Source: a bacterium
GTDB lineage: Bacteria > Bacteroidota > Ignavibacteria > Ignavibacteriales > Melioribacteraceae
Direction: 5' to 3'
Length of the DNA stretch: 32,649 bases
Assembly: GCA_027398005.1 (NCBI GenBank)
Contig: DAHYUM010000010.1
Span: 1 to 32,649 of the forward strand
The translations under genes were made by a program, and so were the position numbers. Positions within the stretch are counted from its first letter, which is position 1, and each line of letters begins with the position of its first letter. The notes under the pieces are model-generated. The model was not told the DNA's origin. It searched no databases and was given only the letters and a program-made list of their open reading frames with translations. Positions 6,719 through 22,490 of the stretch are shown one piece after another.

Positions 6719-7969
6719 ATGAAAATATTAATTCCCATATTTTTTTTCTTTACATCCCTGTTTGCCCAGCAGAAGATTTTAATTTATATGGACCTTAACC
6801 AGACCGACCACCTTAAAGCGTACGGCATTACATTCAACGCACTTAAAGAGGGGGCAAAAGCGGACTGGCTGTTGAACTACCGGGGCGGCTCCTTCTTAAT
6901 TGATTATACGGAAAAACTTGCCAACGAATGCCGCGTTAAAGGAGTAGCTTATTCGCTCCTTTCCCCGGAGGAAACTGTTTCCCTTTACGCAAAGGTTCAG
7001 GCGCCCGATGTTAATATGGATGTTGTCCGTCTTGAAAAAGCACCCCGTATTGCCGTTTATGTTCCCCCCGGATTTAAACCGTGGGACGACGCGGTTACCC
7101 TTGCACTTGAGTATGCCGAAATTCCGTACGATAAAATATGGGTGGATGAAATTCTTAATGGTGGGCTTGAAAAATATGACTGGCTTCATCTGCACCATGA
7201 GGATTTTACGGGACAGTACGGCAAGTTCTATGCTTCGTATGCGGGGGTGCAGTGGTATGTAGACCAGCAGAAAATTTATGAGGCTGAAGCCGCAAAACTG
7301 GGGTTTAAAAAAGTTTCGCAGATGGAAAAAAGCGTTGTGCTGGCAATAAAGGATTATGTGGGCCGGGGGGGATTTCTGTTCGCAATGTGCTCGGCTACCG
7401 ATTCCTACGATATAGCATTGGCCGCACAGAATGTTGATATTGTAGATAAAATGTACGACGGCGACCCGCCCGACCCGGATGCTCAGGAGAAACTCGATTT
7501 CAGCCAGACTTTCGCGTTCGAGAATTTTAAATTGGAAATGAATCCGATGGTTTATGAATACAGCGATATAGACATTCAGCCGGAGGAAATAGGCAATCAG
7601 GCTAACGATTATTTTACACTGTTCGATTTTTCGGCCAAGTACGATCCCGTGCCTGCAATGCTCGTTCAGAACCATGTTAATGTAGTGCGCGGATTTATGG
7701 GGCAGACTACCATGTTCCGCAAAAAATTAATTAAGAAGTCGGTTCAGATTCTTGGCGAACGGAACGGGGCAGACCAGGTTAAATATATACACGGCAATTA
7801 CGGAAAAGGGACATTTACATTTTACGGAGGACACGATCCGGAGGATTACCAGCATGCGGTAGGCGATCCACCGACAGATTTGTCGCTCCATAAAAATTCG
7901 CCGGGGTACAGGCTGATATTAAATAATGTTCTTTTCCCGGCGGCTAAAAAGAAAAAGCTGAAAACTTAA
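6719..7969 (+). CDS. Secreted protein with glutamine-amidotransferase-like fold ('asparagine synthetase B'-labelled family)
   Basis: The N-terminus MKILIPIFFFFTSLFAQQ is a signal peptide. The mature start KILIYMDLNQTDHLKAYGIT, followed by a WLLNYRGGSF motif, matches from memory a Bacteroidota/Chlorobi family that databases often call asparagine synthetase B. I see none of the motifs of true AsnB: no N-terminal catalytic cysteine and no SGGLDS PP-loop. Instead, DYVGRGGFLFAMCSATDSYD places Cys224 at what looks like the nucleophile elbow of a class I glutamine-amidotransferase or ThuA-like fold. Other conserved-looking blocks are WLHLHHEDFTGQYGKFY and HGNYGKGTFTFYGGHDPED. It is 416 residues long and probably periplasmic. 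Function is unknown, and the Cys224 role is an inference. Confidence 0.7.
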   Translation: MKILIPIFFFFTSLFAQQKILIYMDLNQTDHLKAYGITFNALKEGAKADWLLNYRGGSFLIDYTEKLANECRVKGVAYSLLSPEETVSLYAKVQAPDVNMDVVRLEKAPRIAVYVPPGFKPWDDAVTLALEYAEIPYDKIWVDEILNGGLEKYDWLHLHHEDFTGQYGKFYASYAGVQWYVDQQKIYEAEAAKLGFKKVSQMEKSVVLAIKDYVGRGGFLFAMCSATDSYDIALAAQNVDIVDKMYDGDPPDPDAQEKLDFSQTFAFENFKLEMNPMVYEYSDIDIQPEEIGNQANDYFTLFDFSAKYDPVPAMLVQNHVNVVRGFMGQTTMFRKKLIKKSVQILGERNGADQVKYIHGNYGKGTFTFYGGHDPEDYQHAVGDPPTDLSLHKNSPGYRLILNNVLFPAAKKKKLKT

Positions 7970-14145: not shown

Positions 14146-16371
14146 ATGAAAAGAATAAATACAGCATTTCTGCTGATGTTGTTCATCAGCGGAATTATAA
14201 TCGGACAGGCGGCAAGTCCTCAAAAACCCGCTATAAACGCGGTGAAAATAGATAAACCAATTAATTTAACAGGCAAAATAGATGACCCCGAATGGGCTTT
14301 GGCTCAGCCGGTGGAGCTGAAATATGAAATTATGCCGGGGGAAAATATTCCCGCGCCTCAAAGAACTGTCGTTAGGGCATTGTACGACGATAAAAATGTC
14401 TACTTCGCCTTTAAATGCTACGATACCGACCCGGGTAAAATAAGGGCTAATATAAGCGACAGGGATAAAATATTTCAGGATGATATGGTCGGAATCATCT
14501 TGGATACCTACGGCGATTACCAAAGGGCGTATGAGATTTTCGTGAATCCTTACGGAATAAAGGCCGATTTAATGAGAACGCAGAATAATGAGGATCCCAG
14601 TTTCGATATTATATGGAACTCTGCGGCCTCCATTAATAAAGACGGCTGGAGCGCAGAAGTGGCAATCCCTTTTTCAAGCCTTAATTTCGCCAATAAAAAG
14701 GAGCAGGTTTGGACAATTGCATTATTAAGAATACTTCCGCGCGCAAGCAGGGCGCAGATTTCGTGGCTGCCGTATGACAGGAATAATCCATCCCTGCTGG
14801 CGCAGTCGGGTGAATTGAAGGGAATAAAAAATATTCAATCGGGGGGCGGAGTAGAATTGCTTCCCTACGCAATGGGACAGAAAAGCGGATATCTTTCAAA
14901 CTCGGATAACCCGAACAGCGGAATTAAATATGACCCGATAATTGGAAGAATAGGGGGAGGAATTAAATATTCTCCTAGCGCAAATTTCTCAATTGACGCC
15001 GTAATCAATCCCGATTTCAGCCAGATTGAATCGGACGCCGACCAGATAAGCGTTAATACAACATTTGCCCTTCAATATGAAGAGAAGCGCCCCTTCTTTC
15101 TTACGGGAAGAGAACTGCTTCAAACGCCGGTTTACTACTCCCGTTCAATTAACGATCCTCTTTACGCCGGAAGAATTCTGGGTAAATCGGGGGCTCTTAC
15201 TTATATGTATATGGGGGCAATGGACAGGAACACAATTATCGTAGTCCCCGGCGAAGACATGAGCAGTACAGTTGCCACCGAGAAAAAATCTCTTGTTAAT
15301 ATCGGCAGGCTCCGTTACGATTTCGGCGACGAGAGCTATATAGGCGCAATTTTAATGGGCAGGAATATTGAGGATGCACACAACTATTCAATCGGGTTCG
15401 ATTATAATTATAAATTCTGGAATAACTGGTATATAAGGGGAGAAATTCACCTTGCCAATACAAAAGAATTGAACGATACAGCACTTTTCAATTCGGACCG
15501 CAGACTTGGCAACACAAACCACACCGCGGCATTCGACGGGGAAAATTATTCGGGAATCGGGTTGGAATCGATGCTATCGCACGATTCCCGCTCCTACGGT
15601 TTTCAGCTTGAATACACCGATATCAGCCCCGCTTTCCAGGTTTACAACGGTATAATTACTTCTACCGGCTACAGAAAAATATTTATGAACCATTACTACA
15701 CGATATATACCGAAAATTCATTCCTCGAAAGGACCACCTTCAGCATAAACGGCGATATGCGCTTTAATTTTGAAGGCACGAAAAAAGAACAGTTCGTTCA
15801 GCCGGGAGTAAGTTTCTCGCTTAAAGGGCAGACCGATATTTACGTGGGTTATCTGCTTGTAAACGACGAAGTCTTTTTCGGTAAAGATTTGAGAGGTGTT
15901 AGAAGAATCCAGTTCAATGCTCAAACACGCCCTACTAACGAAGTATCTTTTATGCTTTCGGGGCAGGTAGGCAATTTCATTTACCGCTCGGACGATCCTG
16001 TAGTCGGGTGGGGACATAATATTTCTGCTACAGTACAGATTAAGCCTACGCCTCAGCTGGATGTATCCCTTTCGTATACCCGCGCGCGTCTGGGCGAAAA
16101 GGATGCCGATAATTTATTCTACGACGGAAATATTTACCGCGCCGTGGCAATATATCAGTTCAACCCCGAGATTTTTGTAAGGACAATTCTTCAGTATAAT
16201 ACTTTCAGCAAGGAAATTCAGGTATATCCGTTATTCAGCTACAAGCTGAATGCGTTTACGAAATTCTTTGCGGGCGTAACAAGCAATTACCTTAATTACG
16301 AAAACAATTACGGATTCAGGAATACTGATCAGCAGTATTTTGTAAAGCTTCAGTATTTATTGGGAATTTAA
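14146..16371 (+). CDS. Outer-membrane protein with CBM9-like domain and DUF5916-type barrel, paralogue 1
   Basis: This 741-residue protein has a signal peptide (MKRINTAFLLMLFISGIIIG, mature from about residue 22). Residues 30-210 look like the carbohydrate family-9 binding-like beta-sandwich (GKIDDPEWALAQPVEL, VVRALYDDKNVYFAFKCYDT). Residues 230 to the end fit the DUF5916 barrel: VINPDFSQIESDADQISVNT, EKRPFFLTGRELL, many alternating aromatic strands, and a C-terminal strand QQYFVKLQYLLGI. The family is known from Bacteroidota and relatives. Its function is not established, though surface binding or processing of glycans is a fair guess. It is first of three tandem paralogues. A TAGGG lies about 8 bases before the ATG, and a terminator follows. 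Confidence 0.88.
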   Translation: MKRINTAFLLMLFISGIIIGQAASPQKPAINAVKIDKPINLTGKIDDPEWALAQPVELKYEIMPGENIPAPQRTVVRALYDDKNVYFAFKCYDTDPGKIRANISDRDKIFQDDMVGIILDTYGDYQRAYEIFVNPYGIKADLMRTQNNEDPSFDIIWNSAASINKDGWSAEVAIPFSSLNFANKKEQVWTIALLRILPRASRAQISWLPYDRNNPSLLAQSGELKGIKNIQSGGGVELLPYAMGQKSGYLSNSDNPNSGIKYDPIIGRIGGGIKYSPSANFSIDAVINPDFSQIESDADQISVNTTFALQYEEKRPFFLTGRELLQTPVYYSRSINDPLYAGRILGKSGALTYMYMGAMDRNTIIVVPGEDMSSTVATEKKSLVNIGRLRYDFGDESYIGAILMGRNIEDAHNYSIGFDYNYKFWNNWYIRGEIHLANTKELNDTALFNSDRRLGNTNHTAAFDGENYSGIGLESMLSHDSRSYGFQLEYTDISPAFQVYNGIITSTGYRKIFMNHYYTIYTENSFLERTTFSINGDMRFNFEGTKKEQFVQPGVSFSLKGQTDIYVGYLLVNDEVFFGKDLRGVRRIQFNAQTRPTNEVSFMLSGQVGNFIYRSDDPVVGWGHNISATVQIKPTPQLDVSLSYTRARLGEKDADNLFYDGNIYRAVAIYQFNPEIFVRTILQYNTFSKEIQVYPLFSYKLNAFTKFFAGVTSNYLNYENNYGFRNTDQQYFVKLQYLLGI

Positions 16372-16413
16372 CTCCCCCAAATAAATAGATAGGTAGGCGT
16401 ATCTTCTATTTGC

Positions 16414-16443
16414 AAAGCCCGGCTTAGGCCGGGTTTTGTTTTT
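16414..16443 (+). terminator. Intrinsic terminator after paralogue 1
   Basis: The stem CCCGGC-TTAG-GCCGGG (16418-16433) is flanked by AAAG and a T-rich tail TTTTGTTTTT. It starts about 45 bases after the stop codon and separates paralogues 1 and 2 into different transcripts. Confidence 0.85.
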
Positions 16444-16741
16444 AATTTAAATGGTTTATATGAAAATTTCTTAAGCGGAAATATGCTGTAATGCAGATTA
16501 ATAATTAGTCCGGCGCAGTCCCCCATTTATAAATTCTTCAAAAAATTATTTATTATTACATGCCCGATGTTATTATTTATGCAGATAATGCAGTGAATAA
16601 TGCGTTGCGGGTTTTTTCTTTTAAGTGTGAAACCAATAAACCTTGCCGGAATTACTGCGCATGCCGCACGCCGGACAAAAAACATCTTACGGATTTATCT
16701 TTGATTTATCTATTAACTCTTCTCTAATTAAAGGATTATTT
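16444..16741. other. Intergenic region ahead of paralogue 2
   Basis: Together with the preceding terminator this makes about 370 bases without a gene. I see no RNA gene, repeat or credible small ORF. It holds a candidate -7 box at 16696 and an AAAGGA ribosome binding site seven bases before the start codon at 16742. Confidence 0.6.
16696..16703 (+). promoter_or_regulatory. Candidate -7 box of paralogue 2
   Basis: TATCTTTG matches TAnnTTTG and lies 38 bases before the start codon, a normal distance for a short leader. No clear -33 TTTG is seen, so confidence is low. Confidence 0.3.
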
Positions 16742-18973
16742 ATGAAAGTAAAAATTTACTCTTCTCTTTTTATTCTATTCTCATTTTTAAGCTTTTCAAT
16801 GATGGCACAGAGTGTGAATGTTGGCAAAGAAACGATGAATGCTTTAAGAATTGACAAATCATTTAAAATTAATGGCAAAATGGATAGCCCTCTTTGGGCA
16901 AATGCAAAACCGGTTGAACTTAAATATGAAGTTCAACCGGGGGATAATACCCCCGCACCGCAAAAAACCCTGGTGCGCGCCATGTACGACGATAAGTTCA
17001 TTTATTTCGGATTTCAATGTTTCGATACAAATCCGGAACAGATAAGGGCAAATATATCGGACCGCGATAATCTTTTCCAGGATGACTATGTTATTGTTCT
17101 TCTAGATACCTACGGCGATTACCAGAGAGCCTACGAGCTGGCCGTTAACCCTTACGGAATTAAAGGGGACCTTATGCGCACCAGCAATAACGAGGATGAA
17201 AGCTTTGATATGATTTGGTATGCAGAAGCCGCAAGGAATGACAATGGATGGACCGCCGAAATGGCAATTCCTTTTTCTTCCCTTAATTTCCCCGATAAGG
17301 AGGATCAATCGTGGGTTCTTGAAGTGGTTCGTACACTGCCCCGTGCAAGCAGAACACAGATATCGTGGACTAAGATTGACCGCAACATTCCTGCTTTAAT
17401 GCCGCAGGCCGGATTGCTGGTTGGTTTGAAAAATATTCAGTCCGAAGGTAAAGTTGAACTTTTACCTTACCTTATGGGGCAGAAAAGCGGATACATGAAC
17501 GATTACAATAATCCTAATTCGGGAATTAAGTTCGACCCGGTAATAGGGCGTTTCGGAGGAGGAGTGAAATATTCACCAACGGCCGATATTACAATTGACG
17601 CGGTTATAAACCCCGATTTCAGCCAGATTGAATCGGACGCGGCGCAGATTAGCGTTAATACAACATTCGCATTGAATTATGATGAAAAACGCCCCTTCTT
17701 TTTAACAGGGCGCGAACTGCTTCCCAATCAGCAATATTATTCCCGCTCTATTAACGACCCGTTGTATGCGGGCAGAATAATAGGCAAAACCGGCGGACTT
17801 ACTTTCTTATATATGGGCGCATTGGACAGGAATACCGTTTTTGTTGTTCCGGGGGAAGATATGAGCAGCACCGTAGCAAGCCCGCTTCAATCGGTTGCCA
17901 ACATTGGGAGGGCTCGTTACGATTTTGGAGATGAGAATTATATAGGCGGTATGCTATTTACGCGCAATATGGAAGGGGGGCATAATTATGTGCTTGGAAT
18001 GGACTGGAATTATAAATTCTGGACCAACTGGTATTTCGGCGGAAGCGTTTATTTTTCGCAGACGAAAGAACTTAACGATACAACTCTCTTTTCGTCCAAT
18101 AGAATGTTTAGCAATACAGGCTATAACGCGGGTTTTAACGGAGAGGAATATACAGGCGCGGGCGCTTCTATATCGCTTAACCACAGCGAAAGATCTTACA
18201 ACTTTAAACTCTCTTACAGCGATTTTTCGCCTACCTACCAGACATACGACGGCCTGTTTACCAGAACCGCCAACAGGAACATAGGATTAACTCAGAGCTA
18301 TATACTTTACCCTGAAAATTCCTTCTTCGATAAAATAAGCTTCAGCCTTATGACCTCTACCCGTTTTAATTACGCGGGTGTAAATAAAGAAAAATTCGTT
18401 TCCCCCGGAATTAACCTTCAGCTTAAAGGGCAGACGAATGTAAGCGTATCTTATTTTGTTGTAAACGACGAAAACTTTTTCGGCGTGGATTTAACCGGAG
18501 TGCGCAGAGTGCAGATAAATCTCAGCTCGAGCCCCGTTAAGGAATTTAATTTTTCGGCGGGCGCGCAGATTGGCAGGTTCATTTACCGTTCTTCAAGCCC
18601 GACTATTGGAACGGGGCACAATATAGAAGCTTCGCTTCAGTTCAAGCCTACTTCACAGCTCGATATCTCTTTCTCCTATTCACGCGCGCAGTTAAGGAAT
18701 ATGGCTACCGATGATTTGTATTACGACGGGAATATTTACCGCGCGGTGGCAATATATCAGTTTACTTCCGAAATCCTTTTCAGAACTATCGTTCAGTATA
18801 ATACATTCGGAGAGACATTCCAGCTGTATCCTCTTTTCAGCTACAAAATGAACGCCTTTACCACATTTTTTGCCGGCGCTACGAGCAATTATCTCGATTA
18901 TAAGGGGGAATTCGGATTCAGGAATACTGACCAGCAGTATTTTGTTAAACTCCAGTATCTTATTGGGGTTTAA
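16742..18973 (+). CDS. Outer-membrane protein with CBM9-like domain and DUF5916-type barrel, paralogue 2
   Basis: This protein of about 743 residues starts at ATG 16742, preceded by AAAGGA. An in-frame TTG 99 bases upstream gives a non-signal-like extension and was not used. The signal peptide is MKVKIYSSLFILFSFLSFSM ending MAQ. It has the same two domains as paralogue 1 (GKMDSPLWANAKPVELKYE; VINPDFSQIESDAAQISVNT; EKRPFFLTGRELLPNQQYY) and the same closing strand QQYFVKLQYLIGV. By eye it is the copy closest to paralogue 1 in the N-terminal half, differing mainly in barrel loops (about residues 430-560), as expected if the loops determine ligand. It has its own terminator. Confidence 0.88.
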   Translation: MKVKIYSSLFILFSFLSFSMMAQSVNVGKETMNALRIDKSFKINGKMDSPLWANAKPVELKYEVQPGDNTPAPQKTLVRAMYDDKFIYFGFQCFDTNPEQIRANISDRDNLFQDDYVIVLLDTYGDYQRAYELAVNPYGIKGDLMRTSNNEDESFDMIWYAEAARNDNGWTAEMAIPFSSLNFPDKEDQSWVLEVVRTLPRASRTQISWTKIDRNIPALMPQAGLLVGLKNIQSEGKVELLPYLMGQKSGYMNDYNNPNSGIKFDPVIGRFGGGVKYSPTADITIDAVINPDFSQIESDAAQISVNTTFALNYDEKRPFFLTGRELLPNQQYYSRSINDPLYAGRIIGKTGGLTFLYMGALDRNTVFVVPGEDMSSTVASPLQSVANIGRARYDFGDENYIGGMLFTRNMEGGHNYVLGMDWNYKFWTNWYFGGSVYFSQTKELNDTTLFSSNRMFSNTGYNAGFNGEEYTGAGASISLNHSERSYNFKLSYSDFSPTYQTYDGLFTRTANRNIGLTQSYILYPENSFFDKISFSLMTSTRFNYAGVNKEKFVSPGINLQLKGQTNVSVSYFVVNDENFFGVDLTGVRRVQINLSSSPVKEFNFSAGAQIGRFIYRSSSPTIGTGHNIEASLQFKPTSQLDISFSYSRAQLRNMATDDLYYDGNIYRAVAIYQFTSEILFRTIVQYNTFGETFQLYPLFSYKMNAFTTFFAGATSNYLDYKGEFGFRNTDQQYFVKLQYLIGV

Positions 18974-18994
18974 AATATAAGTTTATTTCAAAGG

Positions 18995-19026
18995 GCGGTT
19001 CCCGTGTGACGGGAACCGCTTTTTTA
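18995..19026 (+). terminator. Intrinsic terminator after paralogue 2
   Basis: A perfect 10-base-pair stem GCGGTTCCCG / CGGGAACCGC with a TGTGA loop is followed by six T. It starts 21 bases after the stop codon. Confidence 0.92.
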
Positions 19027-19212
19027 TTACGGGCTGCCTCCCCCCATATTAAACCATTAAAAAACACATAAAACATCAAATTACCGGAAATGACAGCTTA
19101 ATACCGGTTAAAACTAACTTTATCTAGAAAAAAGATTCTTTTAAAATACTTGAAAAATTATGAAACCACTTACATATTATTTGCGTCATAATAGGAAAGA
19201 AAATGGAAAGGT

Positions 19213-20175
19213 ATGGACAAACTACATAAAATAGGGGCTCTTGGGCTTGCAAGCAGGCTTAAAAGATTAAGCGAACTTCTTTCAAAAGATGTGTCGGCGG
19301 TATATAAGAAAGAAAAAATAGATTTTGAAGCGCGCTGGTTTCCGGTGGTTTATTATCTGCTTGAGGCGGGAGAGGCTAAAATAACCGAAATTGCGGCTGA
19401 GCTTGGAATTACCCATACGGCAATAAACCAACTGGCATCGGAGTTAATGGCCAAAGGATATATAAAGACCGGCAGGAACAAGCTTGATGAGAGATTGCGC
19501 CTTTTAAGTTTAACCGGAAAGGGAATGAAAATTTGCAGCGAACTTGCTCCCCTCTGGAAAACAATTAAAAAAGAAAATGAGAAATTGATTGCCGAGGCTG
19601 GCGGGGGACTGCTTAAAGAACTGGATAGAATTGAGTCGGCGCTGGCAGCACAAAGCATGTACCGGAGGATAATTTATTCGCTTACCGGATCTTCAGCAGG
19701 CGAAATTGAAATTGCGCCTTATGAAGCAAAATTTAAAAAACATTTTGCGCGGCTGAACAGAGAGTGGCTTAATGAATATTTTGAAATTGAGGAACAGGAT
19801 GAACTGATGCTGAATCATCCCAAGGAAAAAATTATTAATAAAGGAGGGGCTATTCTGTTTGCGCTGGCAGAAGGGGAAGTTGTTGGCACCTGCGCCATAA
19901 TTAAACATAAGGGAAATATTTTTGAACTCGCAAAAATGGGCGTAACAAAAAAATTCAGAGGACAGAAAATAGGCGCAAAGCTGCTCGAAAGCGCTATTGA
20001 TAAGGCTATTCAACTGGGGGCGGTTGAACTTTATCTTAGGACGAACAGCCGGCTTAAAGAAGCAAACCGGCTTTATATGAAAAGGGGATTCGAAAAAACA
20101 AGGGTTAATCCTTTTGACAGTAATTCTTACCGGAGGGAAACATACGCGATGAAAATTGTAATTTCAAAAACGTAG
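19213..20175 (+). CDS. Fused MarR-type regulator / GNAT N-acetyltransferase
   Basis: This 320-residue two-domain protein has a MarR-like winged helix in residues 1-150: ITEIAAELGITHTAINQLAS as the recognition region and DERLRLLSLTGKG as the wing. Residues 163-320 form a GNAT domain with the acetyl-CoA loop FRGQKIGAKLLESAI (R249-G250-Q251..G254) and a C-terminal EANRLYMKRGFEKTR. Such fusions are known, and the acetyl acceptor is usually unknown. The stop is 10 bases before the third CBM9/DUF5916 gene, so the two are very probably cotranscribed. This suggests the regulator controls that gene or responds to its ligand, which is an inference. GGAAAGG lies very close to the ATG. The preceding terminator implies its own promoter. 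Confidence 0.9.
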   Translation: MDKLHKIGALGLASRLKRLSELLSKDVSAVYKKEKIDFEARWFPVVYYLLEAGEAKITEIAAELGITHTAINQLASELMAKGYIKTGRNKLDERLRLLSLTGKGMKICSELAPLWKTIKKENEKLIAEAGGGLLKELDRIESALAAQSMYRRIIYSLTGSSAGEIEIAPYEAKFKKHFARLNREWLNEYFEIEEQDELMLNHPKEKIINKGGAILFALAEGEVVGTCAIIKHKGNIFELAKMGVTKKFRGQKIGAKLLESAIDKAIQLGAVELYLRTNSRLKEANRLYMKRGFEKTRVNPFDSNSYRRETYAMKIVISKT

Positions 20176-20185
20176 AGGAGACATT

Positions 20186-22423
20186 ATGAAAGTGAAATAC
20201 CCCCTTGCAGCTATTGCGTGGTGCCTGTTTTTTATGACGCAGGCAACAAGCTTTGCACAGGTGCCCGCCGAAAAACCGGCGGTTAATGCACTAAAAATTG
20301 ATAAGCCGGTTGAATTGAGCGGAAAACTGGATAATCCGGTTTGGGCGCTTGCCGAAACTATTGAGCTTAATTATGAAGTACTCCCGGGCGAAAATACCCC
20401 CGCCCCTCAAAAAACTGAAGTGAAAGTTTTATATGATGATAAGTATTTATACTTTGGATTTATCTGCCTCGACAGCAATCCCGAACAGATTAGGGCAAAT
20501 ATTACCGATAGGGACGGAATGACGGCGGATGATTTTGTGCTTGTGGGCATAGATACCTACGGCGATTACCAGAAATATTACGAACTTGCAGTTAACCCTT
20601 ACGGAATTAAAGCAGATTTGCTTGCTTCGAACGGCGGAAACGAAGATTTAAGTTTCGATATGATTTGGGATGCCGCGGCCGAAATAAATTCGAAAGGCTG
20701 GACCGCCATGATGCGGATTCCTTTTTCGAGTCTTAATTTTTCGAGTGCCGAAGAGCAGAACTGGGTTCTGGCAATTATAAGATGCCTCCCCCGAGCAAGC
20801 AGAATTCAAACTTCGTGGACTCCCCAGTATAAGAATATTCCCGGTTTAATTACACAGGCAGGAGTTCTTAAAGGACTGAAGAATATTAAATCGGGGGGTA
20901 ATGTAGAATTGCTGCCTTATTTAATGGGGCAGAAGAACGGCTCAATTGCCAATCCGGCCAGCCCCAATTCCGGCTTTAAATACGACCCCGTTTTAGGCCG
21001 TCTTGGGGGCGGAATAAAGTATTCCCCCAGTGCAGACCTGGCAATTGACGCTGTAATCAATCCCGATTTCAGCCAGATTGAAGCTGATGCAACGCAGATA
21101 AGCGTAAATACAACTTTTGCGCTTCAGTATGAAGAAAAACGTCCATTCTTTTTAACGGGAAGAGATCTTCTGCAAACCCCCATGTATTATTCCCGTTCCA
21201 TAAACGACCCCCTTGTTGCGGGCAGAATTTTGGGGAAAACAGGGGCTCTTACTTATATGTATATGGGGGCGCAGGATAGAAATACGGTTTTCATTATTCC
21301 CGGAAGGGAAAACAGCAGTACAATAGCCACAGATAAAAAGTCGATTGATAACATCGGCAGGCTGTGGTACGACCTTGGCAATGAAAATTATTTGGGCGCA
21401 ATGATTTTAGCCCGGAACATAGGGGATGGGCACAATTATGTATTCGGTGCCGATTGGAAGTATAAGTTTTGGACCAACTGGTATTTCAGCGGAGAAACTT
21501 TCCTTTCGCAAACTAAAGAATTGAATGAACCTACCCTGTTTAACTCGCAAAGAGGATTTGGCACTACCGGTTTTAATGCCGCATTTAACGGAGAAGAATA
21601 TAGCGGAACAGGAATTCATCTGAACCTTTCAAAAAGGGGAAGGGATTTCGGGTTCTCGGCTACATATAATAATTTCAGTCCAACTTATATGACTTACAGC
21701 GGTATGTTTCCAAACAACGATTATCAGCAGTTTGTTTTTCAGCCATCTTATACATTCTATAATGTAAATTCATTTGTAGATAGGTTATATTTTTACCTGC
21801 TTTCCTATGCCAATTTCGATTCCGAGGGGGGAAGAAAAGCCCTTATATTTCAGCCGGCAATTCATTTTGTTGTTAAGGGGCTGACGAATTTTGAAATCAG
21901 CTATCTATATACGGCAGAAGATTTTTACCGCAACACAAGCATGAAAAATGAAAAGAGCATTGTGATTAATGCAAGCACGCGTCCGGTTAAGGAATTTACC
22001 CTCTTCTTTAACGGCACATTCGGAGATTTCTCTTATTACTCGTCAACTCCCGAAGTTGGTTATGGCCATAATTTATCTGCCTCAATTCAGCTTAATCTCA
22101 CTTCACAGCTCAATTTATCGCTCGATTATTCGAGGGCGCGCCTTTCGGGCAAAAAAACGGATGAATTGTTTTACGACGGCAATATTTACAGAGGAATTGT
22201 AAAGTATCAATTTTCGGAGGCCTTGTTCTTCAGGACAATTCTTCAGTACGATTCATTCGAAAAGAATTTCCAGATATATCCTTTGCTCAGCTACAAATTA
22301 AATGCGTTTACAACTTTTTTTGCCGGCGCTACAAGCAATTATCTTAATTACGGCGAGAATTACGGTTTCAGAAATACTGAACAGCAGTATTTTGTTAAAA
22401 TACAATATTTAATAGGCATTTAA
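20186..22423 (+). CDS. Outer-membrane protein with CBM9-like domain and DUF5916-type barrel, paralogue 3
   Basis: This 745-residue protein has a signal peptide (MKVKYPLAAIAWCLFFMTQA, ending SFAQ) and a strong GAGGAG ribosome binding site. The CBM9-like part (GKLDNPVWALAETIEL, KVLYDDKYLYFGFICLD) and the barrel part (VINPDFSQIEADATQISVNT, EKRPFFLTGRDLLQTPMYY) align with the other two copies, and it ends QQYFVKIQYLIGI. It is the most divergent of the three, with different loops around residues 440-600 and VPGEDMSSTVA replaced by IPGRENSSTIA. It differs from its paralogues in being the second gene of an operon, behind the MarR-GNAT regulator. Confidence 0.88.
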   Translation: MKVKYPLAAIAWCLFFMTQATSFAQVPAEKPAVNALKIDKPVELSGKLDNPVWALAETIELNYEVLPGENTPAPQKTEVKVLYDDKYLYFGFICLDSNPEQIRANITDRDGMTADDFVLVGIDTYGDYQKYYELAVNPYGIKADLLASNGGNEDLSFDMIWDAAAEINSKGWTAMMRIPFSSLNFSSAEEQNWVLAIIRCLPRASRIQTSWTPQYKNIPGLITQAGVLKGLKNIKSGGNVELLPYLMGQKNGSIANPASPNSGFKYDPVLGRLGGGIKYSPSADLAIDAVINPDFSQIEADATQISVNTTFALQYEEKRPFFLTGRDLLQTPMYYSRSINDPLVAGRILGKTGALTYMYMGAQDRNTVFIIPGRENSSTIATDKKSIDNIGRLWYDLGNENYLGAMILARNIGDGHNYVFGADWKYKFWTNWYFSGETFLSQTKELNEPTLFNSQRGFGTTGFNAAFNGEEYSGTGIHLNLSKRGRDFGFSATYNNFSPTYMTYSGMFPNNDYQQFVFQPSYTFYNVNSFVDRLYFYLLSYANFDSEGGRKALIFQPAIHFVVKGLTNFEISYLYTAEDFYRNTSMKNEKSIVINASTRPVKEFTLFFNGTFGDFSYYSSTPEVGYGHNLSASIQLNLTSQLNLSLDYSRARLSGKKTDELFYDGNIYRGIVKYQFSEALFFRTILQYDSFEKNFQIYPLLSYKLNAFTTFFAGATSNYLNYGENYGFRNTEQQYFVKIQYLIGI

Positions 22424-22463
22424 TTTCCCTTGTATATATAATCCCCCAACTACCTTCCTACAG

Positions 22464-22490
22464 GCCCGGTTACCCCGCCGGGCTTTTTTA
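22464..22490 (+). terminator. Intrinsic terminator after paralogue 3
   Basis: GCCCGG (22464-22469) pairs with CCGGGC (22478-22483) across an eight-base loop. It is followed by TTTTTTA and begins about 40 bases after the stop codon. Confidence 0.8.

Follow-up and report, generated by a model that had tools for sequence, protein, structure and literature searches.

Tandem CBM9-like/DUF5916 outer-membrane barrel paralogues and a MarR-GNAT fusion gene in an Ignavibacteria draft genome

Genes and transcription units of the locus

The window, i.e. the whole stretch of DNA analysed here, occupies bases 1-32,649 of contig C11 in a draft genome of 2.93 Mb (87.6% complete). On its forward strand lie three full-length open reading frames (ORFs) of one family, referred to herein as copy 1 (14146-16371, 741 aa), copy 2 (16742-18973, 743 aa) and copy 3 (20186-22423, 745 aa). 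Between copies 2 and 3, on the same strand, a 320 aa ORF (19213-20175) encodes a MarR_2 domain (residues 39-94) and a GNAT domain (residues 183-293). The original prediction, made from the sequence, had described three genes of 741-745 codons together with a MarR-GNAT gene, and all four were found to be real at these coordinates. Because the signal peptide of copy 2 begins at the ATG at 16742, this codon was chosen as its start; an in-frame TTG at 16643 would add 33 codons (16643-16741) ahead of the signal peptide and is probably unused. Elsewhere in the window, neither a 435 aa ORF on the reverse strand (344-1651) nor a 416 aa ORF on the forward strand (6719-7969) gave any Pfam match, even at E-values up to 1.

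Each of the three copies matched CBM9_1 (PF06452) above the Pfam cut-off of 23.4 bits (31.6, 36.2 and 26.0 bits in copies 1, 2 and 3, respectively). DUF5916 (PF19313; cut-off 22.6 bits) was listed by hmmscan for copy 1 only, whereas a genome search recovered it in all three (47.3, 43.9 and 41.0 bits). These DUF5916 matches are partial, covering model positions 27-94 or about 67 of 572 positions (~12%); in contrast, a paralogue (G000:C144) matches the model from 1 to 562. The copies share with other DUF5916/CBM9_1 outer-membrane proteins a CBM9-like N-terminal domain followed by a barrel bearing an NPDFSQ...EKRPFFL segment, in identical order, but at ~740 aa they represent a divergent, shorter version of the barrel that is common in Ignavibacteria. 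No TonB-receptor plug domain was found ahead of the barrel, and the copies had no plug or receptor match in Pfam, no enzyme family match and no match in a PDB sequence search. Our literature search on DUF5916/CBM9 barrels returned no functional study and no mention of DUF5916, in keeping with the earlier statement that the family lacks a firm function. The family is widespread, with strong matches (E up to 1e-75) in 108 of the 391 sampled genomes of the class, a survey that scored the two best candidates per genome and so does not report copy number.

Folding of the intergenic stretches revealed a stem-loop with an adjoining T-run 3' of every copy on the forward strand: at 16412-16439 after copy 1 (12-bp stem, -20.6 kcal/mol), at 18990-19024 after copy 2 (16-bp stem, -25.0 kcal/mol; missed by a pattern scan) and at 22462-22485 after copy 3 (-15.7 kcal/mol). 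The individual intrinsic terminators that had been proposed are therefore present, and all three are strong. Since the copy 2 terminator lies upstream of the MarR-GNAT gene, and only 10 nt containing a Shine-Dalgarno-like AGGAG (20176-20180, forward strand) separate this gene from the ATG of copy 3, the two genes very probably form one two-gene transcription unit. This spacing, along with the terminator positions, supports the cotranscription suggested originally. The promoter of the unit is expected in the intergenic stretch at 19026-19212 on the forward strand. The best palindrome ahead of the MarR-GNAT gene (19169-19199) was within chance expectation (29 of 300 shuffles were as good), and a search for words common to this stretch and the DNA preceding copies 1 and 2 returned no informative one. 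A MarR operator common to all three transcription units was therefore rejected.

Duplication history and genomic neighbours

The three copies are 57-62% identical to one another and form a single clade (91 ultrafast bootstrap, 93 SH-aLRT) beside single-copy orthologues, which supports the duplication proposed for them. Copies 1 and 2 are closest to each other (62%) and copy 3 is the most diverged. Among the nearest relatives of the barrel protein is that of a Melioribacter metagenome-assembled genome (MAG), and the window is tentatively assigned to the Melioribacteraceae of Ignavibacteria or their vicinity. An orthologue was detected in 9 of 79 genomes of the same family, as a single copy in each except the window genome, one of these single copies appearing as two fragments at contig ends. 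Synonymous codon identity between the copies is ~50%, near saturation, and all ORFs are intact; the duplications must therefore be old and the copies have been retained. A recent duplication or gene conversion was rejected on the same synonymous sites and on the longest exact DNA run in common, which is 30 nt. The triplet is thus an old, lineage-specific tandem duplication and an ordinary, routine paralogue expansion of an uncharacterised family.

The context of orthologous barrel genes is not conserved, their neighbours varying by lineage and including HSP90 (three genomes), inositol phosphatase, Thr-tRNA synthetase and Omp85, among others. Other genomes likewise contain CBM9/DUF5916 barrels in tandem or in clusters, with a pair in genome G101 and heterologous pairs in genomes G258 and G158. 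We also observed arrays of two to four such barrels in Poribacteria MAGs (L075, L085, L094, L117) and in other MAGs. At two loci (L209, 3511-8897; L211, 4004-8722), the single-copy orthologue is located 3' of a distant CBM9/DUF5916 barrel paralogue of 725-727 aa, either immediately or one gene further on.

The MarR-GNAT protein carries both domains in one ORF, is homologous end to end to other such fusions, has the same domain order as full-length homologues elsewhere in the class and phylum, and is, judged from its sequence, a known type of fusion regulator. Homologues, with up to 47% identity, were found in 34 of 391 genomes of the class including the window genome, a few of which match the GNAT half only, and in 3 of the 79 family genomes. 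At 16 loci of the class, the gene directly 3' of the MarR-GNAT gene on the same strand encodes an S41 peptidase whose N-terminal domain is of the IRBP type and whose N-terminus is hydrophobic; this peptidase is the usual partner, whereas the window gene is paired with a barrel gene. No close copy of the peptidase was found in the window genome. In another family of the class, the neighbours are instead glyoxalase, RidA-like and glycogen phosphorylase genes (L151-L156, L237). The MarR-GNAT gene and the barrel gene co-occur in 19 of 34 genomes, versus 108 of 391 genomes with the barrel overall (naive p = 0.0003). We give this statistic no weight, as only a few families account for most of the carriers.

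In none of the other genomes searched did a MarR-GNAT gene lie beside an orthologous barrel gene, so the adjacency, whose absence from every related genome would by its own terms refute the original prediction, is nearly missing from relatives. The exception concerns a distant barrel: in G158, the sister of the window's MarR-GNAT gene (47% identity, support 99) is followed on the same strand by an S41 peptidase gene (25 nt), a CBM9/DUF5916 barrel gene of a distant clade (47 nt) and an esterase gene. Two barrel neighbours among ~35 MarR-GNAT loci, in genomes that hold several barrels each, are suggestive, not conclusive, and the pairing of regulator and barrel is mostly particular to the window genome. 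It is quite possible, at somewhat less than an even chance, that the MarR-GNAT gene came to lie between copies 2 and 3 by a chance insertion and is functionally unconnected with the barrels, copy 3 simply using its promoter. The missing orthologous neighbours, the usual S41 peptidase or glyoxalase/RidA partners and the scarcity of the gene in the family all fit this explanation, while the 10-nt spacing with its Shine-Dalgarno-like motif, the uninterrupted stretch between the two genes, in which no terminator was found, and the same-strand barrel two genes 3' of the G158 sister speak against it. It concerns the regulator only and is compatible with the barrels being channels.

Predicted structure and divergence of the copies

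AlphaFold2 models of copies 1 and 3 (pLDDT 90.4 and 89.7, from 48 and 46 sequences, respectively) displayed an identical strand pattern: following the signal peptide, a CBM9-like domain (approximately residues 27-228) precedes a barrel of ~24 strands. In a Foldseek search the CBM9-like domain matched the solved structure of BACUNI_03838 (PDB 4jpq; TM 0.73, 14% identity), which has the same fold but is a putative carbohydrate-binding protein of ~219 residues without a barrel. The barrel itself returned generic matches with TM under 0.45, among them LptD and TonB-dependent receptors. Like the copies, these proteins form large barrels in the outer membrane and have a periplasmic part or a plug ahead of the barrel, but the similarity is only generic (query TM under 0.4), and the N-terminal domain and the insert described below differ. 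The modelled barrel has an even number of strands, and its short turns and long loops lie on opposite sides, an arrangement that should place the two termini in the periplasm; the CBM9-like domain would therefore lie in the periplasm and probably is not surface-exposed.

Past the third strand, the barrel is interrupted by a 50-residue segment, residues 288-337 (NPDFSQIESDA...EKRPFFLTGR...YSRSI). This insert has the lowest model confidence within the barrel region, yet no other part of the protein is as well conserved across the family (mean conservation 0.66 versus 0.34-0.49 elsewhere). Across 48 diverse homologues, D290, F291, E295, D297, E313, R315, F317, F318 and R333 of the insert are invariant; the CBM9-like domain likewise has three invariant residues, D107, D113 and D141. 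We read the insert, on the basis of the models, as a plug or constriction segment. The same residues could instead belong to an outer-membrane enzyme, a hydrolase or glycan-modifying protein with the charged insert as its catalytic or metal-binding site and the substrate anchored by the CBM9-like domain. Full invariance of the acidic and arginine residues across phyla, along with that of the three aspartates, would suit such a site, but neither an enzyme family nor a PDB sequence was matched, and salt bridges holding a plug would explain the invariant residues equally well. We consider an enzymatic role unlikely.

The copies had also been thought to combine closely similar N-terminal domains with clearly diverged barrel loops, as expected of surface receptors with different ligands. 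Between copies, identity is 60-63% in the CBM9-like domain, 54-60% in the barrel strands, 47-56% in the inferred outer loops and 82-92% in the insert. The N-terminal domains are thus closer than the loops, but pairs of single-copy orthologues at 50-70% overall identity have a similar profile (CBM9-like domain 63%, strands 58%, outer loops 55%, insert 80%), so the loop divergence is not distinctive. The weakest region consists of strands 467-613, which are 28-42% identical between copies, against ~70% for the other strands, and 42% identical between orthologues. Loops at 467-618 in pairs involving copy 3 are 24-36% identical, versus 60% in orthologue pairs. Beyond this modest excess, which also fits the longer branch of copy 3, there is no trace of loop change specific to a copy. 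Loop lengths are kept and, signal peptide aside, the length difference among the copies amounts to a single codon. Diversification of receptor loops was therefore rejected, the modest copy 3 excess aside. A role as surface receptors or variable antigens with loops under diversifying selection can draw on the somewhat lower conservation of the outer loops relative to the CBM9-like domain and on the copy 3 loops at 467-618, which exceed orthologue divergence. It is still highly improbable, given that orthologue pairs have about the same profile, that divergence falls mostly in strands 467-613 and that loop lengths are unchanged.

A possible role for the barrels and the regulator

We tentatively favour a reading, held with rather less than even confidence, in which the copies are old tandem paralogues acting as plugged channels and copy 3 is under an autoregulating MarR-GNAT protein. 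Old duplications in this lineage gave rise to three tandem outer-membrane barrel paralogues of a gene that is single-copy in the family relatives possessing it. Each copy would most likely be a plugged channel, with the conserved charged segment lying in or over the lumen of the ~24-strand barrel, and the putatively periplasmic CBM9-like domain would handle the passing ligand, probably a saccharide or an amphipathic molecule. It is the architecture of the protein that points to a channel function, since Foldseek recovered only generic barrels. Copies 1 and 2 are independent transcription units, while the MarR-GNAT gene very probably leads an operon and its product would most likely autoregulate the unit, making copy 3 a conditionally expressed version of the protein. 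A parallel for this operon is provided by the 16 loci at which a MarR-GNAT homologue stands first in a short unit that also encodes a secreted protein, the S41 peptidase.

A further idea, which we regard as doubtful, is that the MarR-GNAT sub-lineage comprising the window and G158 proteins was recruited to control CBM9/DUF5916 barrels, sensing, and perhaps acetylating, a compound that passes the barrel. If so, regulator-enzyme and outer-membrane channel would form a pair of which we found no description. Whether or not this idea holds, the most useful feature of the locus is that copy 3 is accompanied by a regulator that should respond to a ligand, and this ligand could reveal the compound that the barrel family binds or transports.

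As a separate observation on this regulator type, the pairing of a MarR-GNAT gene with a secreted S41 peptidase (L206, L220-L236) is more conserved than the regulator-barrel pairing of the window.
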